Source of the DNA: Terriglobales bacterium
GTDB taxonomy: Bacteria; Acidobacteriota; Terriglobia; Terriglobales; Acidobacteriaceae
Length of the DNA stretch: 55,870 nt
Direction: 5' to 3'
Assembly (NCBI GenBank): GCA_015654835.1
Contig: JAATGG010000213.1
Span: forward strand, 1-55,870
The notes under the pieces are model-generated. The model saw nothing but the letters and a program-made list of their open reading frames with translations, was not told the DNA's origin and searched no databases. The first letter of the stretch is position 1, and every line of letters starts with the position of its first letter. Positions 31,156 to 50,861 of this stretch are shown one piece after another. A program made the translations under genes and the position numbers.

Positions 31156-31947
31156 GCTTCCCTCTCTGGGTAACGTCCATGGTGATTAGCGGTAGATTTG
31201 TACGAGCAACATTGGAAGCTGAGCAGTGTGTCGGGTCACGCTACTGGCTTCGGTGTCAATGCTGCCCACTGTTTGCGCTGTACGTTCGCAGAGAGTGACA
31301 ATTCCTGCGAAAGAGTCCCAGGCTAATTCTGCGTATCTCGACTCTTTTTTATTGCAAGACAAGTGCCATTTACCGTACTACCAAATGCGGCGGAATTTAC
31401 CAGGGCTAGGATCTGAAACGACTCAACCTGCCGTCCCAAAGTCTTGGTGACCGCATGAAGTCAGCATTACGCGCGAAGCAGACTCGGCCTAGAAATGTGG
31501 TGGAGCATGCCTGGAGGACAGATCATCAGGCGCCGCTTCGCGTCCCTTAGTCCAAACGGGGAAGTGTTCGGAATTCGGTAAGGGGCTTCCGCAGAAATCG
31601 AGTGGTTCGAGGCGTTCTGGACTTAATGGATCATTATTAGCGAGGCGATTGCACTTCACTGCGCCACTGTCACGGCAAACAGCATGCGCTGGGGTTCACT
31701 AAGCGGAGACGCCGAAGTGTCATCTTTTCCAAAACATGAGTTAGCGGGCATCTACGTCAGGAAGTCCTGAAATTGACCATTGGTAGTCTGCTTATCAGAA
31801 ATGTGACGGAATATAGTCACTATTTCTGATAAGCCAAATGCTCAAGTGATTCAAGTGATCACGCTCATTGACTTCATGAGCAATTCAGTGAAAGCATCGC
31901 CTTGATAGTCCGGGATTCGCAGGAACGTCCGGTAGAGGACTCCGATC
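31156..31947. other. Long leader/intergenic region before the sigma-54 activator
   Basis: About 790 bp without a credible gene. It includes the 43-bp inverted repeat at 31791-31833. Further downstream is a short direct repeat, CAAGTGAT at 31843-31850 and 31852-31859. One ACGTCAGG resembles the core of the upstream box found at three other promoters but lacks the rest of the box and a -24/-12 element at the right distance. Confidence 0.4.
31791..31833. promoter_or_regulatory. Large inverted repeat upstream of the sigma-54 activator gene
   Basis: CTTATCAGAAAT (31791-31802) is the exact reverse complement of ATTTCTGATAAG (31822-31833). The pairing extends inwards through TGAC/GTCA with one bulged base. 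It lies 115-157 bp before the ATG at 31948. It could be an operator for autoregulation or a hairpin; no T tract follows. Confidence 0.6.
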
Positions 31948-35369: not shown

Positions 35370-35529
35370 GTGGGACCGCTCAAGTGAACCTCATGTGCGC
35401 GCCGATGTGCCCATCGGCGCACCCTGTCATTCGCTTAATATTGATGTCCAATCTCAGCTGTTGGTGCCATCGGCCAAGTTTTCCAGTAGCTACCGGAGTC
35501 ACAGGAATTCTGGCGAACAGAAGGTAAGG

Positions 35530-36165: not shown

Positions 36166-36207
36166 GCATTTGACCGATTAATGACAATGTAATCGGAGGA
36201 ACGGTTC

Positions 36208-36843: not shown

Positions 36844-36847
36844 ACTC

Positions 36848-37176: not shown

Positions 37177-37574
37177 GCCTCGGGCCACGGTGCCGTTATT
37201 ATATTTTCAACCTGCTATGCTTACTTTCCTTCAAACGGAAGCCTCCTGACGCTTAGTGTTGCAGAACCCATTGTTCTTCATGGATTGATGCATCGAGAAC
37301 AGGACATCAGGGTAGCGCCGCACGGGAAATTGACGTCGACTTTGCCCGCATGACGTTTATTCTCTATCTTGACTTGTGTCCTCCGCATTTTTGGCGATAC
37401 TCCTAGCAAGCAAATTGGTTGAGTATAATGCACTGCTTCGGGGTGACTTCAGACCAGTTCGAACAGTGTATGTTAGCTGGACGATCTTAGTGAGAAGTCG
37501 CTTGCAATGATTCTGCCTCGATTTCGAACGTAGTTTGCCGCACACCATCCCCTCGGGGACGATTGTACTGGCCA
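37177..37574. other. Gene-free stretch after the rib operon
   Basis: About 400 bp without a supportable gene or RNA. It ends at the conserved upstream box of the first VOC gene. A short in-frame stretch near 37265-37350 reads like protein but matches nothing I recognise. Confidence 0.35.
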
Positions 37575-37605
37575 TATTGCGTCAGTCCAGGCATTTCACA
37601 GTCAC
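37575..37605 (+). promoter_or_regulatory. Conserved upstream activator box A
   Basis: This 31-bp box matches boxes B (38751) and C (44815) without gaps: TATTGCGTCAG first, AG at positions 15-16, C at 18 and 23, and CAGT.AC at the end. Twenty of 31 positions are identical in all three. It lies 91 bp before the -24 GG of sigma-54 promoter A, the usual place for an enhancer-binding site. Confidence 0.8.
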
Positions 37606-37664
37606 ATCTAGTCACCTTCTGTCCTGGTAGTGACAAATCTCAGCGGGTTTCTCGTTACAGGAAG

Positions 37665-37680
37665 TGGAATCCCGGTTGCC
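37665..37680 (+). promoter_or_regulatory. Sigma-54 promoter A (before the first VOC gene)
   Basis: GTGGAATCCCGGTTGCC has the invariant GG and GC separated by 10 bases. The preceding ACAGGAAGTGGA is identical with promoter C. The start of the VOC gene is about 120 bp downstream. Confidence 0.75.
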
Positions 37681-37803
37681 ACAGCCTAGAGAGCGGTATT
37701 CCTATCGCTAGATACTAGCGCGCGGCCCTTTAGTGCAGCTTCTTCTTGACAGGAAACACGCGACATAGGCAGTTCAGCGCGTTGGTTAGGAGAAAACACG
37801 CGT

Positions 37804-38304
37804 ATGCGATTCCACCGTATGGCTATATTCGTGAGCGACATGGATGCAGCAGTAAAGCTATGGCGCGACGTGCTAGGCTTCCCGGTCATGACCGACAAGA
37901 CCATTCCTGACGAACAGCGCGCCGATCCTACAGCTGAATTCGGCCCAAAGCCTCCTAACGATATTGCGGACGCAATGATGGCTCGGTCACGGATAGTCGT
38001 GCTTAGCTCATCCGAAGGTGCGTTGATCGAGCTACAACAGCGTGAAATCCCAAGACTTTGGACAACGCGTCCACCTAACCTGCGTTACCAACGAACGGGC
38101 ATTCTCGAACTCGCGCTCCAAGTTACCGACATCGATGCGTGGTTCGTGAGGGTGCGGGCAGCGGGCTACAGCACGCAAACGGAGCACGTCTGGAAGTGTG
38201 CTGACACTCTCCGATCCTTTCTCTTCTTTGACCAAGACACCAACTTGATTCAAATGTGGGAACCAATCCGCGTACTCTCAGAGGGATCACCTATACAACT
38301 GTAG
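37804..38304 (+). CDS. VOC-superfamily (glyoxalase/dioxygenase-fold) protein 1
   Basis: The 166-residue protein has two beta-alpha-beta-beta-beta modules of the vicinal-oxygen-chelate fold. The first begins MRFHRMAIFVSDMDAAVKLW with a candidate metal His. The second is ILELALQVTDIDAWFVRVRA, ending FFDQDTNLIQMWEP. The middle has RIVVLSSSEGALIELQQ. Glyoxalases, epimerases and dioxygenases share this fold and the reaction is not identifiable. It is preceded by sigma-54 promoter A and resembles the VOC protein at 39317, so the pair are paralogs. Confidence 0.82.
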   Translation: MRFHRMAIFVSDMDAAVKLWRDVLGFPVMTDKTIPDEQRADPTAEFGPKPPNDIADAMMARSRIVVLSSSEGALIELQQREIPRLWTTRPPNLRYQRTGILELALQVTDIDAWFVRVRAAGYSTQTEHVWKCADTLRSFLFFDQDTNLIQMWEPIRVLSEGSPIQL

Positions 38305-38750
38305 ACTTTGTATCCGCCGATGACCCCATAAGCGAAGTGAGAGCAGAAAGAGAATTTACGGAGTGCATCCTGAGATATGTCGCCACCAGGGGTCGCAACT
38401 GATAATTCCACAGCATCGAAACGATAAAGCAGCCACATCGAAGCTCACTAGCGGCTATGTGACAGCTTTGAGCCTGTTACATCTCTGCTCACCGGCTAAT
38501 GAAGAATGTTCACTAATCCTTCAACGTCGGGAGAGTGAGTATCTTGCAAAGGTTCTGTCATGTCGGCGACGCTGATATTGCTCAACAGCGTTGACACTGT
38601 TATTGACCCTGTGTAGAGGTTCTTGGGCCTTGCAGTGTTCCACCATCTGGCAGCTGCCGTGAACAGTGGTACAGCTTGTAATGACCAGCGGGCCGTCGAG
38701 AGCACAGACCAGCTCGAAGGCATCGATATTAGGGAGGATTCTACTGACTC
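38305..38750. other. Gene-free stretch between VOC 1 and box B
   Basis: About 445 bp with no supported gene. Neither strand has a frame resembling a known family. Confidence 0.35.
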
Positions 38751-38781
38751 TATTACGTCAGGTGAGCCGCCCCGCAGTCAC
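38751..38781 (+). promoter_or_regulatory. Conserved upstream activator box B
   Basis: TATTACGTCAG followed by AG, C and CGCAGTCAC at the same positions as boxes A and C. It is 92 bp before the -24 GG. A second shared element, ACGAATTACT at 38810-38819, lies 33 bp before the GG, exactly as in promoter C. Confidence 0.85.
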
Positions 38782-38841
38782 CTCCACGTCGCTTTCCGTC
38801 GCAATTGCGACGAATTACTGCGGATTCTCTGCAACACGAAT

Positions 38842-38857
38842 TGGAATCAGAGTTGCA
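38842..38857 (+). promoter_or_regulatory. Sigma-54 promoter B (VOC/acyl-CoA dehydrogenase/fix genes)
   Basis: TTGGAATCAGAGTTGCAT: GG (38843-38844), 10 bases, GC (38855-38856), with the TTGCA form of the -12 element. It reads into the VOC remnant, VOC 2 and acyl-CoA dehydrogenase. Confidence 0.8.
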
Positions 38858-38962
38858 TACCATAGATAGTATTGCGATCGCGCTGTACTGCCGAATGGCG
38901 TTCGTGGCCGCTCTTCCTCACGGAAATGCGGCCACGACCAACGCAGTCTTGCGCGGAAAGAC

Positions 38963-39256
38963 ATGTGTATGCGCTTCCACCCTGTGGCCATATGTGCCAG
39001 TGACGCCGATCTAGGTTTGAAGCCGTTGCCCGGCGCCCCCAGTTTCCAGATAACAATCCATGGCATGCTTCGGAAAGAACAGACCAGACGTCCGATGACA
39101 CATATTGCCCTGGAGATTCTCGCCAATACCTTTGGCACCAATAATGCTCGATCCTCTGTGGGAAAAGAGGGGCTGCTTCCGTGCCATAAGGGAATGGTGG
39201 CCAAGGAAGGTGTTCGGCCAACTCATCAGTGTTACCTCAACTCGCAGGGAGCTTAG
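38963..39256 (+). pseudogene. VOC-protein remnant
   Basis: The frame begins MCMRFHPVAICASDADLG, nearly the start of VOC 1 (MRFHRMAIFVSDMD), and aligns loosely up to ILRKEQT-like residues (MLRKEQTRRP; VOC 1 has IPDEQRA). The remaining sequence no longer resembles the fold. It is probably a decayed duplicate lying just downstream of promoter B. It may still be transcribed as leader of VOC 2. Confidence 0.5.
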
Positions 39257-39316
39257 GCATTAGAACTCAAGGCCAATAAACAAAGGACACGCTAACCGCA
39301 CGAAAGGAGAAAAGCG

Positions 39317-39793
39317 ATGAATTTTCACCACGCATGTTTGATAGTGACCGATGCCGACAAGGAAATTGCTCTATTCCGAGATGTATTGGGGTTCAAGGTT
39401 GTCGTAGACACAATAATTCCAGGCAAGGACGAGACCTTTTTCAACCAGAGAACGCTGGATGATATCTTCCACGTCAAAGGCTCAAGCTCTCGCATGGTTA
39501 TGCTACTCCATGACGATGGAGCGTTCGTCGAGCTTCAGCAGCCATCGGTCCCCAAAATACAGGCAACTCCGCGAAAGTACCTTCAATATGGGTACACCGG
39601 GATATCGGAGCTTGCATTCTTGGTCACCAATATCGATGAACTGTTCAAGAAGGTCAAAGCTGCTGGCTACGAGACACAAACCGACTATGTCTGGGATGTC
39701 CCTGATGGCCAAGGTGGTATCGCCAAATCCTTCTTATTCTACGATCCGGATGGTGCCATGCTTCAGTTTTATCAAGCTCCACCTAGCAAGTAG
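39317..39793 (+). CDS. VOC-superfamily protein 2
   Basis: This 158-residue VOC-fold protein begins MNFHHACLIVTDADKEIALF and includes SSRMVMLLHDDGAFVELQQ, ISELAFLVTNIDELFKKVKA and FLFYDPDGAMLQFYQA. The candidate metal ligands (His near residue 4-5, Glu in VELQQ, Glu in ISELAF) are in place. It is similar to VOC 1 over its length. It has an AAAGGAG ribosome site. It lies upstream of acyl-CoA dehydrogenase, as in gene sets where a VOC epimerase feeds an acyl-CoA pathway (for example methylmalonyl-CoA epimerase); this assignment is speculative. Confidence 0.85.
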   Translation: MNFHHACLIVTDADKEIALFRDVLGFKVVVDTIIPGKDETFFNQRTLDDIFHVKGSSSRMVMLLHDDGAFVELQQPSVPKIQATPRKYLQYGYTGISELAFLVTNIDELFKKVKAAGYETQTDYVWDVPDGQGGIAKSFLFYDPDGAMLQFYQAPPSK

Positions 39794-39907
39794 CCTGCGT
39801 AACAGGCATGCATCCGTGAGCAACTACAGGAGGATCAACGTCCCTATATGTTGTCCCGGCTTCGAACTTAACGACACCGCCTAACGGCTATAAGAGGAGC
39901 AACACAA

Positions 39908-41077
39908 ATGTCATCTTTGGTAACTTCAAATACAACACTCAGCTCGCTAACCGACGAACAGCAGTTGATCCTTAACAACGTTCGGGAATTCGTGCAAACC
40001 GAAGTAAAACCGAGGGCTCCACAAATCGACAAGACTGCACAGTTTCCTCATGACCTTTTCAAGCGTTGTGCCGAGCTAGGTTTAACCGGACTCGCTATTG
40101 ACGAGGAGTACGGCGGTCTAGGACAGGGAGTGCTGATGGAGCAGCTCGTAATGGAAGAGATCGCCAAAGAGTGCCCAGTGCTGGCACTGATTCTCGATGC
40201 GCATCTCTTATCCTATCGGCTCATTAATCATTTCGGTAGTAAAGAGCAGAAAAAGCGGTTTATCCCGCCTACAGCGAGCGGGGCACAAATTACAGCCATG
40301 GCCAGCACCGAAGCGACCGGCAGCACGAATTTCGCTGAGCAGCAACCCATGGGGAAGAGAGATGGCGATGGAATAATCCTCAACGGTACAAAGTTATTCA
40401 CCACAAACTCCGATGTCGCTGGCTTTTATATTGTTCAAGGCATGGTCGATGGTGAATTCGTCAACGTTATCGTCGAGAAAGGAACCCCAGGCCTGGAAAC
40501 AGGAGCAATTGACCACAAGCTAGGAATGGCTGGCTCATCCACTGGAACAGTGCGGTTTAAGAATCTTCGCGTACCGAAAGAAAATATCCTCGCGGAACAC
40601 TCCGACGTACAAGACGCGAGCTTTGCGCTCTGCTTCCTGAACATAAGCTCGATATCGATCGGTTTGGCCGAGGGCGTCCTCGAAAAAACAAAGACCTACT
40701 TATTGAACAGAACTCGTAATCACAAACCCCTTGCCGGTTTCCAGGTTGTGGCGCACCACCTCGCTAAAATGCAGACCCAGATCGAACTTGCAAAGAGCAT
40801 ATTGGAGCGCGCTGCAAAGCTATACGACGAGGGCCGGCCGGATGTTGTTCTTACGTTTATGACGAAGGCGTTTGCATGTGAAATGGCGGTAGATGTTGCG
40901 AATCTATGTATCCAACTACACGGCGCGGCCGGGTACATGGAAGAAACGGGGATTGCCAGATATTTACGCGACGCCAAATGCAACACGATTGGAGAAATAT
41001 CGACCGACATCCATTACGACTACATTGCGCTCCGGATGGGGTTGCCGATTGATACAAGTTTTCCGCTCTTCGGTTGA
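39908..41077 (+). CDS. Acyl-CoA dehydrogenase
   Basis: The 389-residue FAD enzyme oxidises an acyl-CoA to the enoyl-CoA and passes electrons to ETF. It has an N-terminal helical domain (LTDEQQLILNNVREFVQTEV), a beta domain (ITAMASTEATGSTNF, NGTKLFTTNSDVAGFYIVQG) and a C-terminal helical domain (VAHHLAKMQTQIELAKSILE, QLHGAAGYMEETGIARYLRD). The catalytic Glu is likely that in NTIGEISTDIHYDY, matching the IYEGT position of the family. The substrate is unknown. It is directly followed by its electron acceptor genes (etfB/etfA/fixC/fixX). Confidence 0.93.
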   Translation: MSSLVTSNTTLSSLTDEQQLILNNVREFVQTEVKPRAPQIDKTAQFPHDLFKRCAELGLTGLAIDEEYGGLGQGVLMEQLVMEEIAKECPVLALILDAHLLSYRLINHFGSKEQKKRFIPPTASGAQITAMASTEATGSTNFAEQQPMGKRDGDGIILNGTKLFTTNSDVAGFYIVQGMVDGEFVNVIVEKGTPGLETGAIDHKLGMAGSSTGTVRFKNLRVPKENILAEHSDVQDASFALCFLNISSISIGLAEGVLEKTKTYLLNRTRNHKPLAGFQVVAHHLAKMQTQIELAKSILERAAKLYDEGRPDVVLTFMTKAFACEMAVDVANLCIQLHGAAGYMEETGIARYLRDAKCNTIGEISTDIHYDYIALRMGLPIDTSFPLFG

Positions 41078-41138
41078 TCAATGGACTGGACGTTTAGCTT
41101 AGGCGAGATGTCCGGTTCGTCGTTTGGATGGCAAAAAC

Positions 41139-41175
41139 GGAAAGGGCCTATCATGTCCAGGCCTGAGGCCCTTCC
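41139..41175 (+). terminator. Hairpin between acyl-CoA dehydrogenase and fixA
   Basis: GGAAAGGGCCT (41139-41149) and AGGCCCTTCC (41166-41175) form a 10-bp stem with a 16-nt loop. No T tract follows, so it may be a partial terminator or an mRNA stability element that lowers, but does not stop, transcription into the ETF genes. Confidence 0.5.
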
Positions 41176-41247
41176 TTCCTAACTGTGCGGAGCAAACATG
41201 ATGATGCAAAGTGTTGACCAAGGACACGATACTGACGAGGTGGACCC

Positions 41248-42015
41248 ATGTCGAAAGTCATAGCCTGCTACAAATGGGTGGCAGATGAAACTGATATCAA
41301 GGTAAATGCAGATTCGACCCTCGATATTAGTAAAGCCAAAGGCAAGATAAGTGATTACGACCGCAATGCAATAGAAGCAGCCGTACAGGCAGCAGGCGCT
41401 CTGGGCGGAACGGCTGTTGCGCTGACCTTTGGTACGCCTAAAGCAAAGCAGTCACTAAAGGATGCCTTATCCAGAGGACCTGCCGAAGCCTGCTACATCA
41501 ATGCCGAGGAGGCTGCAAGAGCAGATGGTGCTGTAACGGCCAAAGCTCTCGCCGCGGCTGTGAAGAAGATTGAGAACGTTAGTCTGGTGGTCTGTGGCGA
41601 AGGCGCCAGTGATACCTATGCTCGCCAGACCGCGCCTCGAATAGGCGCAGTCCTTGACTGGCCAGTTATTACATCGGTCAGCAGCGTGAGGTTCGATGGC
41701 AATGCTCTCATCGCCGTTAGAAGACTTGAAGACTGCATGCAAACTGTTAAAAGTGAGCTGCCCGCTGTGATCGCAGTACTGCCGGAAATGAACTCTGCCC
41801 CCATACCGGGCCTGAAAGCGGTTCTGTCGGCTGGTAAAAAGCCCGTCACTGAATTTAAGGCCGGGGATCTAGGAGTAGACTTTGCTCCAAAAACGACTGT
41901 GTCTGCCCTGAAGGCCTATGCGATGAACCGGAAGAGCGTCATCTTCAGCGAAGGCGAAATCGCAGACAAGGTAAAAGAACTCACGGCTGCTCTTAGGAAG
42001 GAAGGCGTCCTCTAA
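41248..42015 (+). CDS. fixA: Electron-transfer flavoprotein beta subunit (FixA type)
   Basis: The 255-residue protein belongs to the ETF-beta/FixA family: VIACYKWVADETDIKV at the start, ISDYDRNAIEAAVQ, ALTFGTPKAKQSLKDALSRG, LVVCGEGASDTYARQTAPRI, and RRLEDCMQTVKSELPAVIAV. It is the partner of FixB in a flavin-based electron-bifurcating ETF. Its stop overlaps the fixB start by one base (TAATG), so the two are translationally coupled. Confidence 0.93.
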   Translation: MSKVIACYKWVADETDIKVNADSTLDISKAKGKISDYDRNAIEAAVQAAGALGGTAVALTFGTPKAKQSLKDALSRGPAEACYINAEEAARADGAVTAKALAAAVKKIENVSLVVCGEGASDTYARQTAPRIGAVLDWPVITSVSSVRFDGNALIAVRRLEDCMQTVKSELPAVIAVLPEMNSAPIPGLKAVLSAGKKPVTEFKAGDLGVDFAPKTTVSALKAYAMNRKSVIFSEGEIADKVKELTAALRKEGVL

Positions 42016-42923
42016 TGGCGGGAATCTATGTTTACAGCGATAAGAAGGATCTAGCGGCAGAGCTCGTTGGCTTTGCGAAAGGCTGCGGAAAAAGAGCCAT
42101 TGTTCTGACCTTTGACGAGCGAGCAGCGAAGGATCTAAGTAACTCTGGAGCAGATAAGGTATGTCTGTTGAAGGGCGACAGCGAACTGGTGGAAAACTAT
42201 GGCAAGTCGATAGCGCACTTGCTCGCAGAACAAGGCGCGGAACTCTTTGTAGTCGGTGCAACCGTCAGTGGGAGAGATATCGCTGCCAGGGTCGCCGGGT
42301 ATCTGGACTGCGCAATGGTAAGCGAGGCGTCATCAATCACCTATACGGATGGCAAACTGGTGACTGAACGAATGATGTACGGCGGATCCGTTCAACAGAG
42401 CGAGGTCTTAGAGGGATTGTGTGTTGTGACAGTGCGCGCTGGAAAGTTCGAAGCGATTAGCGGCGCAGCAGAGGTTACAACCCTTGAGATTTCGGCAGAT
42501 ACGCGCACTACCTTGGTGGAGAGAAAAGATATCGTCAAAGAGGGTGCCGACCTCTCAGTAGCGGAGAGGATTGTCTGTGTTGGTATGGCCCTGGACAAAA
42601 GGGAAGATTTGCAGATCGCCCACGATCTAGCTGCTGTCCTAGGGGCAGAAGTAGGCTGCACCAGAGGGGTTGCTGAGGAAAAACACTGGCTGCCCGTGGA
42701 ACAGTATATCGGCATGTCAGGTGCGGTCGTAAAACCGAAGCTATACCTGTCCATGGGTGTATCCGGTCAGATACAACACGTGTTCGGTATCAGGGATTCT
42801 CAGATCATCGTAGCCGTAAACACGGATCCGAAGGCACCCATCTTTAAGGCTGCCGATTACGGCATTGTTGGAGATATGTATCAGGTCATCCCGCTCTTAA
42901 CTAAGACACTTAAGGGTGCTTAG
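42015..42923 (+). CDS. fixB: Electron-transfer flavoprotein alpha subunit (FixB type)
   Basis: The 302-residue ETF-alpha protein shows the C-terminal FAD-binding domain GAVVKPKLYLSMGVSGQIQH, then NTDPKAPIFKAADYGIVGDM. The N-terminal domain contains FVVGATVSGRDIAARVAGYL. It forms the ETF heterodimer with FixA and carries the bifurcating FAD with its partner. Confidence 0.94.
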   Translation: MAGIYVYSDKKDLAAELVGFAKGCGKRAIVLTFDERAAKDLSNSGADKVCLLKGDSELVENYGKSIAHLLAEQGAELFVVGATVSGRDIAARVAGYLDCAMVSEASSITYTDGKLVTERMMYGGSVQQSEVLEGLCVVTVRAGKFEAISGAAEVTTLEISADTRTTLVERKDIVKEGADLSVAERIVCVGMALDKREDLQIAHDLAAVLGAEVGCTRGVAEEKHWLPVEQYIGMSGAVVKPKLYLSMGVSGQIQHVFGIRDSQIIVAVNTDPKAPIFKAADYGIVGDMYQVIPLLTKTLKGA

Positions 42924-42953
42924 AACTTAGACGGGTGAAAAGGTGATAAGACG

Positions 42954-44243
42954 ATGGGCGACGAGAACTTCGATGCGATTGTAATAGGCGCCGGTCCGGC
43001 AGGAATAGCCTGCGCCTACACACTTGCGAAGCAGGGTAAGACGGTTCTGGTGATCGAGCGTGGCGACAGCGCCGGGAGCAAGAATGTAACCGGGGGCAGG
43101 TTTTATACGTACGCCCTGGAGATGGTGGATCGTGGGCTGACAGCAGAAGCCGCTCTGGAGAGAAAAGTCACTCATGAACAAATCATGATGTTAAGCGGCA
43201 ACCGGGCTATAAGTGTCGACTATTATGACCCTTCATTTAATAGGGTAGGAGGGACAGCGCAATCTTTTACGATCTTAAGGGCGGTATTTGATCCGTGGTT
43301 TGCCGGCAAGGCCGAAGAGATGGGTGCGACGGTCGTGTGCGGTATTCGAGTGGATGACGTGATAGAGAAGGAGGGGAAGATTGTCGGGGTGATTGCCGGA
43401 GGCGATGAGATGTACGCCAACGTTGTAGTAGCGGCCGATGGCGTCAATTCATTCATAGCCCAAAAGGCTGGCCTGATCAAAGACATTGAGTCCCATGCTG
43501 TTGCGGTGGGCGTGAAAGAGATTATCGAACTTCCCGCTCAAACCATCGAGCAGAGATTCAACCTCAAGAGCGAGGAAGGTGCGGCGCGCCTCATTTTAGG
43601 TTGTACCGAGGGGATACATGGTGGTGGATTTCTCTATACCAACAAGGAAAGCATTTCGCTGGGCGCCGTGTTTATGCCGGAAGAAGTGGCCCGGCACGGA
43701 CGATCGCTTCCTGAGATGTTTCAGGAATTCAAGATGCATCCGGCCATTTGCCCGCTCCTTGAAGGTGGGAAAACAGTAGAGTACGGCGGGCATCTGGTGG
43801 CGGAGGAAGGTTATCGGGGAATTCCCAAGAAGCTGTATCGAGAAGGTTTCTTGGTATGCGGCGAGGCAGCCGGATTTGTCGTTAACCTGGGGTACACCAT
43901 CAGGGGTCTCGATCTGGCGGTCTTGAGTGGGCTCGCCGCGGCAAAAGCTATTCTTGAAGCAGCTAGCCCGGCCAAAGTCGGGCCTGCATATATGCAACAG
44001 CTGGAAGCTGTCAAACTCTTACCGATCATGAGAGCGCTGGATGGATTTACCGACGCCCTGGATATACCGAATTTATTCGGGACCTACCCAAAAGTTGCTG
44101 CTGACCTTTTCCAAAAGCTTTATGCGGTCGATGGATCGGTTCCAGACCATCTAAGGAAGCAGATTTGGGGCGTTGTGAAAGGAAATAAACTTACGCTGCG
44201 GCAATTGTTTGCAGACGGTATCAGGGGGATGAAGGCGCTATGA
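42954..44243 (+). CDS. fixC: FixC-type ETF-quinone oxidoreductase flavoprotein
   Basis: The 429-residue flavoprotein begins with a Rossmann motif, IVIGAGPAGIACAYTLAKQG. It continues with GSKNVTGGRFYTY, VVVAADGVNSFIAQKAG and a C-terminal GEAAGFVVNLGYTIRGLDLA. Members of the FixC family take electrons from FixAB and pass them to quinone with FixX. AAAGGTG precedes the start. Confidence 0.94.
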   Translation: MGDENFDAIVIGAGPAGIACAYTLAKQGKTVLVIERGDSAGSKNVTGGRFYTYALEMVDRGLTAEAALERKVTHEQIMMLSGNRAISVDYYDPSFNRVGGTAQSFTILRAVFDPWFAGKAEEMGATVVCGIRVDDVIEKEGKIVGVIAGGDEMYANVVVAADGVNSFIAQKAGLIKDIESHAVAVGVKEIIELPAQTIEQRFNLKSEEGAARLILGCTEGIHGGGFLYTNKESISLGAVFMPEEVARHGRSLPEMFQEFKMHPAICPLLEGGKTVEYGGHLVAEEGYRGIPKKLYREGFLVCGEAAGFVVNLGYTIRGLDLAVLSGLAAAKAILEAASPAKVGPAYMQQLEAVKLLPIMRALDGFTDALDIPNLFGTYPKVAADLFQKLYAVDGSVPDHLRKQIWGVVKGNKLTLRQLFADGIRGMKAL

Positions 44244-44533
44244 ACATTGACAGGATGCAAACCCCGGAGCTCCTAAGTCTCAACAAATTCAATGTGGATG
44301 AAGAAGAACCTCATATCGTATTGGATAAGGAGATATGTGCGAGGTGCGAGGATAAACCGTGTCTGGTTGTTTGTTCCGCAGGGTTGTACAAACTAGACAA
44401 GAGTGGTGGAATCAGTTTCGACTATGCAGGTTGCTTAGAATGTGGAACCTGCAGAATCATGTGCAAGGACAAGGGGATTGTCAAATGGGTATATCCCCGG
44501 GGAACCTTCGGAGTTAGTTTCAGGCATGGCTAA
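44240..44533 (+). CDS. fixX: FixX-type ferredoxin-like protein
   Basis: The 97-residue protein has a CARCEDKPCLVVCSAGLY cluster and a CLECGTCRIMCKD cluster, typical of FixX (4Fe-4S). It is coupled to fixC by an ATGA overlap. It completes the fixABCX set that bifurcates electrons to quinone and to a low-potential carrier. Confidence 0.92.
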   Translation: MNIDRMQTPELLSLNKFNVDEEEPHIVLDKEICARCEDKPCLVVCSAGLYKLDKSGGISFDYAGCLECGTCRIMCKDKGIVKWVYPRGTFGVSFRHG

Positions 44534-44626
44534 AACGACCACCGCCTAAGGGACGGCAAGCTTGATAACGACTAACAGTCACGCGATTGCAGCTCCAGCC
44601 GCCAGAAGTCTGGCTCAGTGCCGGCT

Positions 44627-44785
44627 TCAAGCCTTGTTGGGGTGATGATTCTGAAGTTCTTCCCTACAGTCCCGCCGATGGCTTTCGGCGTATAGGCGGA
44701 TCGTCTGCTCGCCTACCGCTCCCACGCTCGCACATAAATATCCCCGCGCCCACAGGTATTGGCCTCCAAACTCGGTAGCCCACCC
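44627..44785 (-). mobile_element. IS200/IS605-type TnpA C-terminal remnant
   Basis: Minus-strand reading gives FGGQYLWARGYLCASVGAVG, then EQTIRLYAESH and a stop. The LWARGY..S.VG pattern followed by an I..Y helix resembles the end of IS200/IS605 Y1 transposases. The N-terminal half, with the catalytic HUH, is absent. The element sits between fixX and the hyb promoter region. Confidence 0.5.
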
Positions 44786-44814
44786 TACAGGAGGTTATGG
44801 CGTTGAGCTGACTA

Positions 44815-44845
44815 TATTGCGTCAGCTCAGACGCTCCGCAGTAAC
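44815..44845 (+). promoter_or_regulatory. Conserved upstream activator box C
   Basis: TATTGCGTCAG, AG, C and CCGCAGTAAC at the same positions as boxes A and B. It lies 92 bp before the -24 GG of promoter C. The inner part GCGTCAGCTCAGACGC is nearly palindromic here. The second shared element ACGAATTACT is at 44874-44883, 33 bp before the GG, as in promoter B. Confidence 0.85.
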
Positions 44846-44905
44846 TCCCGCAGTGCTTTTTGCCGCAGAAGCCACGAATTACTTGAGATTTCACATAACA
44901 GGAAG

Positions 44906-44921
44906 TGGACCAGTAATTGCA
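44906..44921 (+). promoter_or_regulatory. Sigma-54 promoter C (hyb hydrogenase operon)
   Basis: GTGGACCAGTAATTGCAT: GG (44907-44908), 10 bases, GC (44919-44920). It has the same ACAGGAAGTGGA lead-in as promoter A. The hybO start is about 97 bp after the GC. Confidence 0.8.
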
Positions 44922-45017
44922 TGCCCCAATACGTCATAGCCCATGTTTGGGCTATATGGCAATGAAGGTATCGACTTTGCGTGCGAACCTAATATGTCAA
45001 CGGGGTTATGAGGGTAG

Positions 45018-46199
45018 ATGACCATACGGAAGACGCCGAATTTCTGTGTTGTAAGGAATCATGGTTGTTTCAGCGACAACGACGAGGGATTGGCCAGCGT
45101 TGATACAAGGCTGGGGCTGTCCCGGCGTACGTTCTTGCAGTTTTGTGCAGTCGTGGCAGTAACCTTGGGATTGCCGCCGGAAGCAGAAGGCGCAATCGCC
45201 CAGGCGATATCGACCAAGCATCGTCCGCCGGTGATCTGGCTGCATTTTGCGGAGTGCACGGGCTGCACGGAATCGCTGCTGCGCACCGAGCATCCGGCGC
45301 TCGACAAGCTGATTCTGGAGTTGATTTCGCTCGATTACCACGAGACGCTGTTCGCCGGCGCGGGCCATCAGGCGGATGCGGCACGCAGGGCCTCGATGGC
45401 GGCCAATAAGGGCAAGTACGTGCTGGTGGTCGAGGGCGCGATTCCCGCGAAGGATAACGGCATCTACTGCAAGATCGGCGGCCGGACAGCGGTAGAGATC
45501 CTGAACGAATGCGCGCAGGATGCGGCGGCGGTGATTGCGCTGGGTTCCTGCGCCGTGTGGGGAGGAATGCCGTCGACGAAACCGAATCCTACCGGCTGCG
45601 TGGGCGTGGATGAGGTATGGAAGAAGCCGGTGGTCAACATACCGGGCTGTGCGCCTAATCCTTATAACTTTCTTTCGACCGTGGTGCATTACATCACATA
45701 CGGTAAGCTGCCGGAACTCGATAACCAGGGACGTCCGAAGTTCGCCTACTCGCGCATCATCCATGAGAACTGCGAGCGGCGTCCGCACTTCGATGCGGGC
45801 CGTTTCGCGCAGGAGTTCGGGGACGCCGGACATCGTGCCGGGTGGTGCCTTTACAAGCTGGGCTGCAAGGGGCCTGAGACGCATGCCAACTGTCCTGCGA
45901 TTCTGTTCGGCGATGTGGGCGGCGGAAGCTGGCCGGTCGGCACGGGCCACCCATGCATCGGCTGTACGGAGAAAGGGATCGGTTTCGAAAAGCCTATTTT
46001 CGCCCTGGCAGAATTGAAGGGCGTAACGCCGCCCGCCTCCTATCCGCGCATTGTCGAGCAACAGGGTCATGGAGCGACCATCGCGTCCGTCGCGGTGCTG
46101 GCGGGCGCTGCTGGAGTTGTCATCGGCGCTTCGGCAGCCATGGCCAGCAATCTCGGCAAGGGAAGCAAACCCGAAGACCCGTCAGAAGGCAAGGAGTGA
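45018..46199 (+). CDS. hybO: [NiFe] hydrogenase small subunit (group 1, Hyb type)
   Basis: The 393-residue electron-transfer subunit has a Tat signal (LSRRTFLQFCAVVAVTLGLP). Its iron-sulfur ligands are visible: ECTGCTESLLR (proximal), ALGSCAVWGGMP, NIPGCAPNP, the His-containing distal set around IIHENCERR and LGCKGPETHANCP, and HPCIGCTEKGI. The C-terminus has a membrane helix (IASVAVLAGAAGVVIGASA), so it is anchored at the periplasmic face. It passes electrons from H2 to the HybA/HybB module. Ribosome site GAGGGTAG. Confidence 0.96.
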   Translation: MTIRKTPNFCVVRNHGCFSDNDEGLASVDTRLGLSRRTFLQFCAVVAVTLGLPPEAEGAIAQAISTKHRPPVIWLHFAECTGCTESLLRTEHPALDKLILELISLDYHETLFAGAGHQADAARRASMAANKGKYVLVVEGAIPAKDNGIYCKIGGRTAVEILNECAQDAAAVIALGSCAVWGGMPSTKPNPTGCVGVDEVWKKPVVNIPGCAPNPYNFLSTVVHYITYGKLPELDNQGRPKFAYSRIIHENCERRPHFDAGRFAQEFGDAGHRAGWCLYKLGCKGPETHANCPAILFGDVGGGSWPVGTGHPCIGCTEKGIGFEKPIFALAELKGVTPPASYPRIVEQQGHGATIASVAVLAGAAGVVIGASAAMASNLGKGSKPEDPSEGKE

Positions 46200-46203
46200 T
46201 TCC

Positions 46204-47211
46204 ATGCCGCTGACAAGAAGAAGCTTTCTGAAGGGAACAGCGGCGGCTGGCGCTGCCTGTGCGGGTGCCACGGCAGCAACGGCCGAAGTCCGCGAAGAAA
46301 AGACTTTACCGCCCAAGGCGCTGGGGCTGTTGTTTGACTCGACCCTATGCGTCGGCTGCAAGGCGTGCGTGGTCGCCTGCCGCGAGGCGAACGGCACGCA
46401 TCCGGAGTTCAACACAGAAGACAAGCTGTGGGATACGCCGCTTGATCTCGATGCCGATACGCTGACCGTGATCAAGGCCTATCGCGAAGGCACGGGCGTG
46501 ACCAAAGACTCGGAAAAGGATGGGTACGCCTTCATGAAGAAGTCGTGCCTGCAGTGCATCGATCCCTCCTGCGTGTCGGTCTGTCCGGTTAAGGCCATGA
46601 CGAAGAACCCAGAGACAGGGATCGTCAGCTACAACCCCGATAACTGCATTGGCTGCCGGTACTGCGTGGCTGCATGTCCTTTCGGGGTGCCGCGTTTCGA
46701 GTACGACAAGACCTTCGCGCGGCTGCGCAAATGCGAGTTGTGCAAGCCGCGCCTGGCAGAGGGCAAGATCGCAGCCTGCGCCGAGGTTTGCCCCACCGGC
46801 GCCACCTTGTTCGGTCCAGTGACAGTGCTACGTGCCGAAGCCGAGCGCCGCCATAAACTGAGGCCGGGCGAGAGAGCCTTCTTCCCGCGCAAGACAGCCG
46901 ACTCGACCGACGTGCATGAGAAGCCTGCCCCACATTATGTTGCGGAAACCTACGGCCTGACGGAAGTCGGCGGCACGCAGATGCAGCTGCTCTCCGGGGT
47001 GCGATTCGAGAAGCTTGGCATGCCGGTGCTCCCGAAGAAGTCGTTCGTGTCGATCTCGGAGACCATTCAGCACACACTCTACAAGGGGATGATCGCGCCC
47101 GCAGTGCTATTCGGCTGCCTGCTCTTCCTGGTTCGCCGGGCGACCAACAGCGAACAGCACAAAACTGCTGAACACGACAAGCACGTAGATCAGCACAAGG
47201 GGGATGAGTAG
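46204..47211 (+). CDS. hybA: Hydrogenase iron-sulfur subunit HybA
   Basis: The start is the ATG at 46204 behind AAGGAG, overlapping the control region of hybO. The 335-residue protein has a Tat signal (LTRRSFLKGTAAAGAACAGA). Ferredoxin motifs: CVGCKACVVACREANG, CLQCIDPSCVSVCPVKAM, NCIGCRYCVAACPFGVPRF and CELCKPRLAEGK with CAEVCPTGA. A C-terminal membrane helix follows (MIAPAVLFGCLLFLVR). It links the hydrogenase small subunit with HybB. Confidence 0.95.
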   Translation: MPLTRRSFLKGTAAAGAACAGATAATAEVREEKTLPPKALGLLFDSTLCVGCKACVVACREANGTHPEFNTEDKLWDTPLDLDADTLTVIKAYREGTGVTKDSEKDGYAFMKKSCLQCIDPSCVSVCPVKAMTKNPETGIVSYNPDNCIGCRYCVAACPFGVPRFEYDKTFARLRKCELCKPRLAEGKIAACAEVCPTGATLFGPVTVLRAEAERRHKLRPGERAFFPRKTADSTDVHEKPAPHYVAETYGLTEVGGTQMQLLSGVRFEKLGMPVLPKKSFVSISETIQHTLYKGMIAPAVLFGCLLFLVRRATNSEQHKTAEHDKHVDQHKGDE

Positions 47212-47214
47212 GCT

Positions 47215-48420
47215 ATGCGCATGAAACCTCTTGGCGGACCTTACATTACCAGGACGACCATCATGGCAGCCCTCATGGTGGCGATCATGGGGATCCTCGT
47301 CCTGATTCGTCTCTGCTTTGGTCTCCGGTCGGTCACCAATCTCAATGACGGTTTTCCGTGGGGGTTGTGGCTTGCGTATGACATGGTCGCTGGTTCGGCC
47401 ATCGGGTGCGGCGGCTACGCGGTGGCGCTGATTGTCTATGTGCTCAACAAGGGCCAGTACCATCCTCTGATGCGGCCGGCTATCCTGGCCAGCATGTTCG
47501 GCTATGCTCTCGGCGGGGTATCCGTGCTGGTGGACATCAGTCGGTGGTGGAACGCCTGGCACATCGTGTGGCCGGCTTACTTCAACCTCAACTCGGTCAT
47601 GATCGAAGTCGCCTTGTGCGTCAGCGTCTATACGATGGTCCTGATGCTGGAGTTTGCTCCGCCGGTAATCGAGAAGACTGTCGAGTGGACGGGGCGGCGG
47701 GGCGGAGATCTTCATGCCGTCGCTACGGCCGTCGAGAAGGTGCTGAACAAGGTTCTGTTCGCGTTTATCGCCCTGGGCATGACGCTACCGACCATGCACC
47801 AGTCCTCGCTGGGCACCATGTTGATTCCCTTCGGTCCGCTCCTCAGTCCGCTGTGGCAGACTCCGGTTCTTCCCGCACTCTTTCTGCTGACGGCATTGTG
47901 CATCGGCTATAGCGTCGTCATGCTGGAGGCGACCCTGGTGTCGGATCGCTTCGCGCGCATCTCCGAGGCCCATATTCTCGGATTGCTGTCGCGCTACCTG
48001 ATCGCAGTGGTGACCGCATTCCTCGCGATTCGCTGGGGCGCTTTGCTCTACCAGGGCAACCTGCATTACATCTTCACTTCCGGTGGGCTCAGCTTCGCTT
48101 TCCTGGCGGAGAACGCCCTCTATCTGATTCCGGTTATTCTGCTGTGGCCTGAGCACCGGAGAATGGCTCCGCACTATCAGTTCATCGCCGCGATGTGCAT
48201 ACTCTCGGGCGGCATCCTTTATCGCCTCGACGCCTACATGATCGCCTACGGCCGCACTGGCTGGCGCTACTTTCCGTCGGTCCCTGAACTGCTGGTGACC
48301 TTCGGCATGATCGCAGTCGAAGTTCTCGGCTACGTGCTGATCGTCAAGTTCTTTCCTGTTCTTCCATCCGTTGAGCACGCCCATCCTGCGGCGCTGGCAA
48401 CTAATAGGAGCGTCGCATGA
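47215..48420 (+). CDS. hybB: NrfD-family membrane subunit HybB
   Basis: The 401-residue integral membrane protein has about ten helices. It includes FPWGLWLAYDMVAGSAIGCG, WWNAWHIVWPAYFNLNSVMI and, near the C-terminus, WRYFPSVPELLVTFGMIAVE. HybB is the quinone-reducing membrane partner in Hyd-2-type enzymes. A second Met at 47221 is a possible alternative start. It is followed by hybC with a four-base overlap. Confidence 0.94.
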   Translation: MRMKPLGGPYITRTTIMAALMVAIMGILVLIRLCFGLRSVTNLNDGFPWGLWLAYDMVAGSAIGCGGYAVALIVYVLNKGQYHPLMRPAILASMFGYALGGVSVLVDISRWWNAWHIVWPAYFNLNSVMIEVALCVSVYTMVLMLEFAPPVIEKTVEWTGRRGGDLHAVATAVEKVLNKVLFAFIALGMTLPTMHQSSLGTMLIPFGPLLSPLWQTPVLPALFLLTALCIGYSVVMLEATLVSDRFARISEAHILGLLSRYLIAVVTAFLAIRWGALLYQGNLHYIFTSGGLSFAFLAENALYLIPVILLWPEHRRMAPHYQFIAAMCILSGGILYRLDAYMIAYGRTGWRYFPSVPELLVTFGMIAVEVLGYVLIVKFFPVLPSVEHAHPAALATNRSVA

Positions 48421-50126
48421 CGACAAGAATCACCATTGATCCGGTTACTCGCATTGAAGGTCATCTTCGCATCGATGTCGAAGTTGAGAATGGCCGTGTG
48501 GCCAAGTCCTGGGCATCGGGCCAGATGTGGCGCGGCATTGAGAAGATCGTATTGGATCGCGACCCGCGCGACGCGTGGGCCATCGTGCAGCGCATCTGCG
48601 GCGTATGCACCACCGTTCACGCCATCGCTTCGGTGCGGGCGGTCGAAGAGGCGCTCGAACTGGAAGTTCCGTTGAATGCCCAGTACATTCGCAACATGGT
48701 TTTGACCGCCCATACCCTGCATGACCATATCGTCCACTTCTATCAACTGTCCGCCTTGGACTGGGTGGACGTGGTCTCGGCGACCAAGGCCAATCCCACT
48801 AAGGCGGCACGGTTCGCCGAAAGCATCTCGGACTGGGAAGGAAATAGTCCGGCGGTCATGGCCGATACCCAGAAGCGGCTGAAGACCTTCGTCGCCTCCG
48901 GCCAACTTGGCATCTTTACCAATGGCTATTGGGGCCATCCGGCGATGAAGCTCTCGCCCGAAGTCAACCTGATGGCGGTGGCGCATTACCTGCAAGCTCT
49001 CGATGCGCAGCGATGGGCCAACAAAATCGTTGGCACGCTAGGCTCGAAGACGCCGCACATCCAGAACCTGGCCGTGGGCGGCGTCTCCAATCCCATCTCG
49101 ACTGACAGTCAGAGCGTGCTCACCATCGAACGGCTTCTCGAGATCAAGGAATGCATCGACAAGGTCGGAGCTTTCCTCCATAACTGTTACTTCGTGGATG
49201 TTGCGGCTATCGCCGCGTCTTATCCCGAGTGGTCTTCGTTGGGCGCCGGCGTTAACGACTTCCTGTCAACACCGGATCTGCCCACCGACACCAAGGGTAC
49301 GCAATTCATGATGCCGGGAGGTTTTCTTCACGGGGGCGATCTTGCCGGTTTCCGGAAGATCTCCCGATTCGGCGATCCCTATTTCACTGATGGTGTAGCC
49401 GAGTCAGTGAAGCACTCCTGGTACACCTACAAAAGCAATGACGGCGAGCTCAAGCCCTGGAGAGGCGAGACCACTCCCGCCTATACGGATTTTCAGGATG
49501 ACGGCAAATATAGCTGGGTCAAGTCGCCGACCTACTATGGCAGACCGGCCCAGGTAGGACCGATCGCGTCGGTCCTGGCAGGCGTGGCGAGCGGGCACCA
49601 GACAACCAGGCTCTACGTCGAACGGCTAAGTCAAAAGATTCACACTCTGTCCGGCTCAAAGATATCTCCTGCGGCTTTGAATTCGACCGTCGGACGTCAC
49701 GCCGCGCGCGTGATCCGTGCCTGCGTCGTCTATGAAGATCTTCAGGCCAACTGGAAACTACTGATGGAAAACATCGGGAAGGGAGATGTGGCGACCTTTA
49801 ACAAGCCCACCTTTCCCAAAGGCGAAATCGCCGGCGTCGGTCAGGTTGAGGCGCCACGCGGCCTGCTCTCCCATTGGGTCGTGATCAAAGACGGTCGCAT
49901 CGCCAACTATCAGGCGGTGGTTCCTTCCACCTGGCTCGCCGCCCCGAAAAATGACAAGGGACAACCCGCCAGTTACGAAGTGGCCTTGCTGGGCACACCC
50001 GTAGCGGACCCCGAACGGCCCCTGGAGGCACTGCGCACCATCCACTCCTTCGATCCGTGTCTTGCCTGTGCCGTGCATCTGACCGATGCCGAGCACAAAA
50101 CCGCCGTTCAGGTCAGCGTCTTGTGA
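48417..50126 (+). CDS. hybC: [NiFe] hydrogenase large subunit
   Basis: The 569-residue catalytic subunit carries both nickel-binding pairs: the N-terminal RICGVCTTVHAIASV and the C-terminal FDPCLACAVH. After the final His, 15 residues (LTDAEHKTAVQVSVL) should be removed by the maturation peptidase HybD. It oxidises H2 on the periplasmic side, with no motif defect seen. The ATG is just after GGAGCGTCGC and overlaps the hybB stop. Confidence 0.96.
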   Translation: MTTRITIDPVTRIEGHLRIDVEVENGRVAKSWASGQMWRGIEKIVLDRDPRDAWAIVQRICGVCTTVHAIASVRAVEEALELEVPLNAQYIRNMVLTAHTLHDHIVHFYQLSALDWVDVVSATKANPTKAARFAESISDWEGNSPAVMADTQKRLKTFVASGQLGIFTNGYWGHPAMKLSPEVNLMAVAHYLQALDAQRWANKIVGTLGSKTPHIQNLAVGGVSNPISTDSQSVLTIERLLEIKECIDKVGAFLHNCYFVDVAAIAASYPEWSSLGAGVNDFLSTPDLPTDTKGTQFMMPGGFLHGGDLAGFRKISRFGDPYFTDGVAESVKHSWYTYKSNDGELKPWRGETTPAYTDFQDDGKYSWVKSPTYYGRPAQVGPIASVLAGVASGHQTTRLYVERLSQKIHTLSGSKISPAALNSTVGRHAARVIRACVVYEDLQANWKLLMENIGKGDVATFNKPTFPKGEIAGVGQVEAPRGLLSHWVVIKDGRIANYQAVVPSTWLAAPKNDKGQPASYEVALLGTPVADPERPLEALRTIHSFDPCLACAVHLTDAEHKTAVQVSVL

Positions 50127-50605
50127 GCAAAGTAGTGGTTCTGGGCATCGGCAACGTGCTGCTAAGCGATGAGGGCGTTGGGGTGCATGCCGTGAAAGCC
50201 CTCGCTCAACAATACGACTTAGCCGATGATGTCCATGTTGTGGATGGCGGAACCACAGGCATGGAGCTTGTGCCAGAGTTAGATGAGGTCGAGCATCTCA
50301 TCGTCATCGACGCGCTGAGGATCGGCCAGCCTCCTGCATCGATCGTCCGCTTGGAAGGCGATCAGGTACCAGCCTTCTTCAAAACCAAGCTGTCGCCGCA
50401 TCAGGTCGGACTTTCCGATGTTCTGGCGGCGCTGGCCTTCAAAGGTTCGGCCCCCAGCCACGTCGTCCTGATCGGCGTGCAGCCGGTGACGCTCTCGTTG
50501 GGCTTTGAACTCTCGCACGCAGTCAAGGCTCGCCTGGACGAAGTGGTGAGCCTTGTTGTTTCGGAGTTGGCGGTGAGCGGCCATCCAGCCCGGCTGCGCG
50601 CCTGA
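50123..50605 (+). CDS. hybD: Hydrogenase maturation endopeptidase HybD
   Basis: I use the GTG at 50123, which overlaps the hybC stop by two bases and starts directly with MSKVVVLGIGNVLLSDEGVG. Upstream codons lie inside hybC. The 160-residue protease of the HyaD/HybD family removes the C-terminal peptide of HybC after nickel insertion. Metal-sensing acidic residues are in DEGVG, and the family HQVGLSD block (HQVGLSDVLAAL) is present. Confidence 0.94.
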   Translation: MSKVVVLGIGNVLLSDEGVGVHAVKALAQQYDLADDVHVVDGGTTGMELVPELDEVEHLIVIDALRIGQPPASIVRLEGDQVPAFFKTKLSPHQVGLSDVLAALAFKGSAPSHVVLIGVQPVTLSLGFELSHAVKARLDEVVSLVVSELAVSGHPARLRA

Positions 50606-50618
50606 GAGGAAGTCCGCT

Positions 50619-50861
50619 ATGTGCATGGCCATTCCGTCCCTGGTGGTCTCTGCTGATGGTAATGTCGCCACCGTCGAATGTTTCGACGTCCGGCGCGTGG
50701 TCAGCACAGTGCTGATGCCTGAGTCAGTGGCGCCTGGTGATTATGTCGCTGTACTCGCGAACGCTTATGCCGTCGAAAAGGTGCCGCCGGAGGTGGCAGC
50801 CGAAACCCTGGTCTATCTGGAAACTGCGCTCCGCGAGCCAACTGCAGGAGATTCGCGATGA
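50619..50861 (+). CDS. hypC: Hydrogenase maturation chaperone HypC/HybG
   Basis: The 80-residue protein starts MCMAIPSLVVS, with the essential Cys2 and the MCxxIP motif of HypC/HybG, and contains VAPGDYVAVLANAYAVEKV. It ferries the Fe(CN)2CO precursor to the large subunit. It overlaps hupK by ATGA. No other hyp genes are in the window. Confidence 0.93.
   Translation: MCMAIPSLVVSADGNVATVECFDVRRVVSTVLMPESVAPGDYVAVLANAYAVEKVPPEVAAETLVYLETALREPTAGDSR

Follow-up and report, generated by a model that had tools for sequence, protein, structure and literature searches.

The stretch of DNA analysed here, hereafter the window, comprises positions 1-55870 of contig C265 in the 280-contig assembly of a Terriglobales bacterium, the genome of which amounts to 4.7 Mb. 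From an OprB-family porin gene to an operon for a Hyb-like uptake hydrogenase, the window carries genes for an FhlA-like sigma-54 enhancer-binding protein, for two VOC (glyoxalase-fold) proteins, for an acyl-CoA dehydrogenase and for FixABCX, together with four predicted sigma-54 promoters, each of which is preceded at a nearly constant distance by an inverted repeat (dyad) of the TGAC-N8-GTCA type. We consider it likely that these elements make up a local regulon, in which the FhlA-like protein encoded at 31948, acting on paired dyads, would switch on four transcription units via RpoN. The features concerned are listed below in the order of their coordinates.

29713..31155, minus strand: OprB-family porin gene (PF04966, 69 bits)
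31353..31368, minus strand: predicted sigma-54 promoter of the OprB gene, TGGCACTTGTCTTGCA, an exact fit to TGGCAC-N5-TTGCW
31448..31463, minus strand: dyad of the OprB promoter, TGAC-N8-GTCA, 79 bp to TGG
31792..31832, no strand assigned: palindrome of 41 bp, TTATCAGAAAT-GTGAC-N8-GTCAC-T-ATTTCTGATAA, with one unpaired base, upstream of the activator gene
31948..34068, plus strand: FhlA-like sigma-54 enhancer-binding protein of 706 amino acids, the proposed activator (Sigma54_activat, 231 bits, plus AAA lid)
37569..37584, plus strand: dyad 1 of box A, TGGC-CATATTGC-GTCA
37589..37604, plus strand: dyad 2 of box A, AGGC-ATTTCACA-GTCA
37665..37680, plus strand: predicted sigma-54 promoter A, -24/-12 element TGGAATCCCGGTTGCC
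37804..38304, plus strand: VOC protein 1 (PF00903)
38745..38760, plus strand: dyad 1 of box B, TGAC-TCTATTAC-GTCA
38765..38780, plus strand: dyad 2 of box B, AGCC-GCCCCGCA-GTCA
38842..38857, plus strand: predicted sigma-54 promoter B, -24/-12 element TGGAATCAGAGTTGCA
38963..39256, plus strand: frame of 97 amino acids without a family match, between promoter B and VOC 2
39317..39793, plus strand: VOC protein 2, 41% identical to VOC 1
39908..41077, plus strand: acyl-CoA dehydrogenase (family match; the glutamate of the C-terminal motif aligns)
41248..44533, plus strand: fixA, fixB, fixC and fixX, of the E. coli YdiQRST/FixABCX type (family matches)
44809..44824, plus strand: dyad 1 of box C, TGAC-TATATTGC-GTCA
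44829..44844, plus strand: dyad 2 of box C, AGAC-GCTCCGCA-GTAA
44906..44921, plus strand: predicted sigma-54 promoter C, -24/-12 element TGGACCAGTAATTGCA
45018..52018, plus strand: hyb operon (family matches)

An earlier note on this DNA had described a sigma-54 regulon with three 31-bp boxes (A, 37575-37605; B, 38751-38781; C, 44815-44845) as a fixed-distance upstream activator site. The likeness of the boxes and the constancy of the spacing are both borne out: the three align without gaps, 20 of the 31 positions being invariant, and the distance from the start of the box to the T of TGG is 90, 91 and 91 bp in A, B and C, respectively. The strings said to be shared between the promoters are likewise found in the sequence, namely ACGAATTACT, which is common to B and C and starts 33 bp before the GG, and ACAGGAAGTGGA, which is common to A and C. 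What has to be revised is the view of the conserved element as a single box. Alignment of the promoter regions places the beginning of the conserved block about 6 bp ahead of the box as originally drawn, and the block itself consists of two tandem 16-bp inverted repeats with starts 20 bp apart. The first of these, TGRC-N8-GTCA, has TATTRC at its centre, and the second, AGNC-N8-GTMA, is weaker. A separation of approximately two helical turns between the dyads would place a pair of activator dimers on the same side of the helix.

The four predicted promoters all contain the GG-N10-GC signature at -24/-12, promoter A being the furthest from TGGCAC-N5-TTGCW (3 mismatches), and the gap between the dyad and TGG is 79 bp at the OprB promoter and 80, 81 and 81 bp at A, B and C. 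The promoters, the dyads and this spacing, which together support the claim of a sigma-54 regulon with an upstream site at a fixed distance, are features of the DNA itself, as are the domains of the proposed activator and the presence of RpoN. Position by position, identity among A, B and C is low far upstream (6/50) and just before dyad 1 (3/10), rises to 23/37 across the dyads, drops to 10/45 in the spacer, amounts to 6/14 ahead of TGG and 8/16 in the -24/-12 element, and falls to 0/44 and 3/50 downstream of -12. By these counts, conservation is largely restricted to the dyads and the promoter. Two other sources of conserved blocks were considered and rejected: in the window, Rfam recognises nothing but an FMN riboswitch, which is located elsewhere, and the region 36700-45100 contains 4 sigma-70-like matches, fewer than its shuffled versions (7.0). 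Inspection of the spacer by eye only revealed no IHF site.

Could such likeness have arisen by chance among unrelated intergenic sequences? Among 400 simulated triples (150 bp; register free by one base), no 31-mer had more than 9 invariant positions, as compared to the 20 observed, so that the better-than-chance claim made for the boxes holds. If up to 3 mismatches are allowed, the 31-bp pattern matches only A, B and C in the 4.7-Mb genome (reversed control, 0); being derived from these very boxes, it is informative solely with regard to the absence of further matches. A composite pattern, constructed from A-C only (TGRC-N8-GTCA, 66-96 bp, TGG-N8-TTGC), has 5 matches in the genome and none in the reversed control. 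Four of these lie on the window contig, within 13.6 kb and with gaps of 79-81 bp, and one of the four is the OprB promoter, which was recovered even though it had played no part in the construction of the pattern. Its complete design, dyad plus -24/-12 element, occupies 31353-31463 on the minus strand. The set of three targets proposed previously is thus correct as far as A, B and C go and incomplete, the OprB promoter being the fourth member. The fifth match, on contig C271, falls within a coding frame that we take, from a remembered motif, to encode an enoyl-CoA hydratase-like protein.

Single composite matches do arise by chance, at about 0.56 per genome: in 135 other, related genomes, we found 76 matches distributed over 56 genomes (mean 0.56, maximum 3; reversed control, 58). 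A set of 300 simulated windows with a gap of 76-84 bp, a range fixed only after the sites had been seen, gave a mean of 0.007 matches and a maximum of 1, as opposed to the 4 observed. Chance resemblance, which is contradicted by the genome scan, by the simulated windows, by the 135-genome scan and by the simulated triples alike, appears to be a most improbable explanation.

Several observations weigh against the regulon as outlined above, and those that pertain to the DNA elements are considered first. The individual elements are common by chance: single dyads with up to 1 mismatch are not enriched in the window (18 versus 20.6 expected), and sigma-54-like sites with up to 1 mismatch number 123 versus 94 expected. 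The evidence resides in the pairing, the spacing and the shared letters, each element being weak when taken alone. The second dyad is generally degenerate and very weak at the OprB promoter, the dyad region of which agrees with those of A-C at just 13-15 of 37 positions. In favour of the regulon, the exact copies of TGAC-N8-GTCA in the window are four, all of them situated between the activator and porin genes or at promoters B and C.

Furthermore, the similarity among A, B and C is not confined to the elements: B and C also agree at 29/45 positions of the spacer, and A and B at 8/10 positions immediately preceding dyad 1, so that part of the similarity may stem from copied promoter DNA. In its extreme form, this explanation envisages that a promoter cassette was copied recently (A and B, including the start of the VOC gene, and then C), the box being a relic of shared ancestry maintained by no selection. 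It could also account for the leader of promoter B, where the 25 bases that start at an internal ATG (38969) of the 97-residue frame resemble the start of VOC 1 (84%, E 6e-4, in a two-sequence comparison), so that this frame might be a decayed VOC copy. However, the dyads of A-C are 65-81% identical, whereas the distant flanks and the leaders are near the chance level, and the OprB promoter, which lies on the opposite strand, shares little with the others beyond the dyad, the -24/-12 element and the spacing. Besides, an activator site would still be present in a copied cassette. Accordingly, we regard copying without selection as an unlikely origin of the boxes.

The second group of unfavourable points concerns the identity of the activator. 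The protein encoded at 31948 is the likely holder of this role, as the earlier note had proposed, by virtue of its sigma-54 interaction domain, its GAFTGA loop and its FhlA-like helix-turn-helix (HTH). Its best NCBIfam match is FhlA/PRK15429, and because the score of 364 bits is well below the cut-off of 830, the protein is classed as FhlA-like, short of FhlA proper. Overall identity to FhlA of E. coli MS 145-7 is 34%; the two proteins have in common the GAFTGA loop and, within the last 35 residues, AGPKGAA..LGLKRTTL.S.M.RLGI. The N-terminal half, where FhlA has two GAF sensor domains, yielded only a weak GAF_2 match in its second part (E 0.055), and the AlphaFold model of residues 1-394 (pLDDT 33.5) is too poor for use. 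The sigma factor itself is available, since the genome contains rpoN as one PF04552 match (193 bits, contig C148). The statement that there is one sigma-54 activator is correct as regards the scanned proteins of the window, but in the genome there are 13 matches to such activators, i.e. twelve besides 31948, and one of them, encoded on contig C51, ends in a similar HTH.

The latter finding makes it conceivable that the dyads are real sigma-54 enhancers bound by a different activator, such as the C51 protein, with the 31948 protein controlling something else or making an additional contribution. The C51 protein is 36% identical to the 31948 protein over residues 53-701, and its terminal HTH, GPGGAAERLGIKRTSLQRKM, is similar (the C-terminal ends of the paralogues were compared for five of seven loci). 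Because the C51 activator has a related HTH, the assignment to 31948 rests on its position together with the HTH type. The position is nevertheless telling: the 31948 gene is surrounded by all four promoters, the composite pattern has no other intergenic match in the genome, a matching dyad is found upstream of the 31948 gene itself, and around the C51 activator gene, the genes of the second hydrogenase and rpoN, no dyad is seen within 200 bp upstream of TGG-N8-TTGC. We therefore assign a small but appreciable probability to control by another activator and think that the dyads would be bound by the 31948 protein. The C51 protein is an FhlA-like activator of 692 amino acids (L002/L056, G000:C51:139-2217).

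The dyad upstream of the activator gene is part of the palindrome at 31792-31832, which is located 115 bp ahead of the start codon, has an inner dyad resembling that of box C and, as single-stranded DNA, folds 6.7 standard deviations better than shuffled sequences. This palindrome could be an autoregulatory operator for the activator's gene. Inverted TGT/ACA half-sites separated by a 10-12-bp spacer have been likened to FhlA and NifA sites (PMC6615313), and TGAC-N8-GTCA has precisely this layout. However, the hycA-hypA region of E. coli (the MS 145-7 copy) matches TGAC-N8-GTCA only with 2 mismatches, so that a match in sequence between the dyads described here and the E. coli FhlA sites is not proven.

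The third unfavourable point is the failure to find the same arrangement elsewhere. When up to 3 mismatches were allowed, a scan of 148 other genomes for the 31-bp pattern produced 4 single matches, each with 3 mismatches, versus 12 for the reversed control; being fewer than in the control, these matches are attributable to chance. Orthologues of the activator were found only in the own genome among 98 relatives (E<=1e-120), a search that did not extend to a wide sample of the own phylum, and none was found in 398 genomes of the phylum of genome G535 (1e-105; no positive control). Similarly, the acyl-CoA dehydrogenase has no orthologue beyond the own genome in 118 relatives (1e-100), none in 395 other genomes of the own phylum, which partly overlap with these relatives (1e-90), and none in 398 genomes belonging to the same phylum as G535 (1e-85; no positive control). 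In the search of 395 genomes and in both searches of 398, no more than 2-4 candidates were scored in each genome among the matches shown, so that the absence of an orthologous activator or acyl-CoA dehydrogenase locus from the sampled genomes is weak evidence.

The hydrogenase could be followed more widely. Small subunits of the hyb type (E<=1e-110) are present in 25 of 297 genomes, namely 24 others and the own one, and none of the 25 other loci, one of which (L035) is cut short, has the box (at most 9.7 bits, as compared to 62.6-64.8 for A-C). These loci comprise the 24 from other genomes and the second hydrogenase of the own genome (contig C242), and their small subunits are just 51-62% identical to that encoded in the window. 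One of them, L030, has a sigma-54-like site upstream and no dyad. The second small subunit of the own genome (L050, G000:C242:27318-28421), which also lacks the box, is 52% identical to the one in the window. As to VOC 1, its relatives among the genome contigs, at L016 and L017, are both devoid of the box. Unlike VOC 1 in the window, each of them has a gene for an alpha/beta hydrolase on one side and a gene of the nitroreductase family on the other, a trio conserved in both genomes (L016 9052-11234, L017 9058-11241), and nine neighbouring frames scanned, out of many, include no hydrogenase, electron transfer flavoprotein (ETF) or acyl-CoA dehydrogenase. Relatives of VOC 1 on plasmids are found near catabolic genes in the three cases looked at, of four.

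The region is flanked by genes for a phage-type integrase (23311-24495) and a group II intron reverse transcriptase/maturase (54764-55813). Along with the lack of orthologues, this setting suggests that the region may be a horizontally acquired island.

Promoter B is located about 475 bp ahead of VOC 2, and its unit is predicted to run through VOC 2, the acyl-CoA dehydrogenase gene and fixABCX. The acyl-CoA dehydrogenase has AcrC acryloyl-CoA reductase as its nearest NCBIfam model, at 279 bits, far from the cut-off of 640. We presume the aligned glutamate of its C-terminal motif to be catalytic, and its presence would be compatible with either direction of the reaction. The gene adjoins fixABCX, in the order known from CaiA/YdiO-FixABCX, and the Fix proteins are nearest to models of the E. 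coli YdiQ/FixA and YdiS/FixC type, with all scores under the respective cut-offs (FixA 202/338, FixB 229/528, FixC 398/610 or 397/466, FixX 105/166). It has been reported that only group 2 ETFs include putatively bifurcating members (PMC6085437) and that FixABCX of A. vinelandii performs bifurcation in vitro (PMC5861303). The earlier note called the ETF of the window bifurcating, an activity that it may or may not possess.

The hyb operon encodes the small subunit, a 4Fe-4S protein, an NrfD-type membrane protein, the large subunit, a maturation protease and HypC, as well as a partial large-subunit-like protein that we take to be HupK-like. The small and large subunits, the HybA-like 4Fe-4S protein, the NrfD-like subunit and the protease correspond to the layout of a Hyb-type uptake enzyme. 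The small subunit is above the cut-off of the hydA subfamily (440/179.5); since the scores of both the small (491/659) and the large (858/969) subunits are below the cut-offs of the E. coli hydrogenase 2 equivalogs, the enzyme is labelled Hyb-like only and placed outside that equivalog.

The operation of the regulon can be envisaged as follows. An inducer would bind to the activator, the N-terminal half of which presumably serves for sensing a small molecule. Dimers of the activator on the paired TGAC-N8-GTCA dyads, which would act as upstream activating sequences, would then form the ATPase ring, and the DNA would bend or loop over the approximately 80 bp onto RpoN-RNA polymerase, enabling the latter to open the DNA at the four promoters. 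The OprB porin, VOC 1, the VOC 2/acyl-CoA dehydrogenase/fixABCX unit and the Hyb uptake hydrogenase would thus be induced jointly, and the activator might, through the palindrome, regulate its own gene.

With respect to metabolism, Hyb would pass electrons from H2 to the quinone pool, and FixABCX would connect this pool with the acyl-CoA dehydrogenase, which, by analogy with CaiA and FixABCX of E. coli, might function as an enoyl-CoA reductase. Alternatively, the acyl-CoA could be oxidised, with the electrons leaving through quinone and the substrate being admitted by the porin. A metabolic role for the regulon as a whole can be proposed, albeit tentatively: an FhlA-like activator might have been shifted from H2-producing formate hydrogenlyase to H2 uptake and might now drive a mobile-looking module, in which H2, oxidised by Hyb, reduces via quinone and FixABCX an enoyl-CoA derived from a compound that enters through the porin and is processed by the VOC enzymes. 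Such hydrogen-dependent enoyl-CoA respiration under one sigma-54 switch is possible, although we consider it doubtful rather than probable.

If the local regulon inferred above is real, four units of mixed and partly unknown function would be tied to one likely inducer, and their induction could reveal the substrate on which the VOC enzymes and the acyl-CoA dehydrogenase act. A regulator of the FhlA type would then act outside formate metabolism, and the case would bear on whether an uptake hydrogenase and FixABCX can form one electron route without nitrogen fixation. The dyad-plus-promoter pattern appears specific enough for finding further regulons of this kind in genomes. The window proteins compared with Pfam include no nitrogenase, a result that does not extend to the remainder of the genome, where nif was not sought.

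Some of the neighbouring genes are of interest in their own right. Between the activator and VOC 1 lie ribB, ribA and ribE (34593-36843), preceded by the FMN riboswitch (34469-34598, 121 bits), which indicates that these flavin genes have their own control. Downstream of the OprB gene and on the same strand, a gene at 28661-29230 encodes a protein of 189 amino acids with a FAD synthetase domain (FAD_syn, the sole match). Flavin supply beside flavin-rich complexes suits the module, yet it lies outside the box regulon. In addition, a small membrane-protein-like frame at 25216-25584 gives a weak match to EhaL (E 2e-4; 22.0 bits versus the Pfam cut-off of 23.8), and the gene content of the first 20 kb of the window, which includes a TonB receptor with a CarboxypepD_reg domain, has an acidobacterial look.

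How does this arrangement compare with known systems? The earlier note held that no link of this kind had been described, a statement that goes too far in view of the NifA/RpoN control reported for hup, hya and fixABCX in rhizobia. In R. leguminosarum, NifA controls the operon for the hup uptake hydrogenase (PMC7415380), and in rpoN mutants of Bradyrhizobium DOA9, fixABCX and the hya hydrogenase genes are reduced, with sigma-54-like sites listed ahead of the hydrogenase genes (PMC13207237). As far as these accounts go, the rhizobial systems share with the window the control of an uptake [NiFe] hydrogenase and fixABCX by one sigma-54 system; they differ in being devoted to nitrogen fixation and governed by NifA, as opposed to the FhlA-like activator, acyl-CoA dehydrogenase, VOC proteins and porin found here.

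The formate hydrogenlyase system of E. coli (hyc, hyp), in turn, provides the parallel for the regulator: FhlA is likewise a one-component activator, with a similarly long N-terminal half, GAFTGA in its AAA+ domain and an almost identical HTH at the C-terminus, and its regulon likewise consists of sigma-54 promoters, with hydrogenase genes among the targets. The predicted targets in the window are different, however, comprising an uptake hydrogenase of the Hyb type, a porin, VOC proteins, an acyl-CoA dehydrogenase and Fix.

The metabolic parallel is found in caiTABCDE-fixABCX and ydiO/ydiQRST of E. coli, where an acyl-CoA dehydrogenase stands beside fixABCX of the same subfamilies. CaiA has been described as a crotonobetainyl-CoA reductase, fixABCX are said to code for putative flavoproteins of anaerobic carnitine respiration, and control is described as exerted by CRP, FNR and CaiF (PMC3680233). 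An in vitro screen in E. coli has listed a peak for the RpoN holoenzyme plus NtrC between caiT and fixA at a 30% cut-off (PMC8743547). Unlike the arrangement in the window, the cai-fix unit contains no hydrogenase.

Finally, a survey published in 2025 predicted that sigma-54 controls subunits of Ni,Fe-hydrogenases in Proteobacteria and, in Clostridia, acyl-CoA dehydrogenases as well as ETF subunits (PMC12316311). In what is available of that survey, these are separate genes in separate phyla, and no common activator site is described. The combination of a hydrogenase and fixABCX with an acyl-CoA dehydrogenase, VOC proteins and a porin was not recognised in any description in the accessible portions of the open-licence PMC literature. 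Taken together, these comparisons place sigma-54 enhancer control among the known kinds of regulation and provide a precedent for a hydrogenase and fixABCX under RpoN; the window is set apart by its FhlA-like activator and by the presence of an acyl-CoA dehydrogenase, VOC proteins and a porin among the predicted partners.

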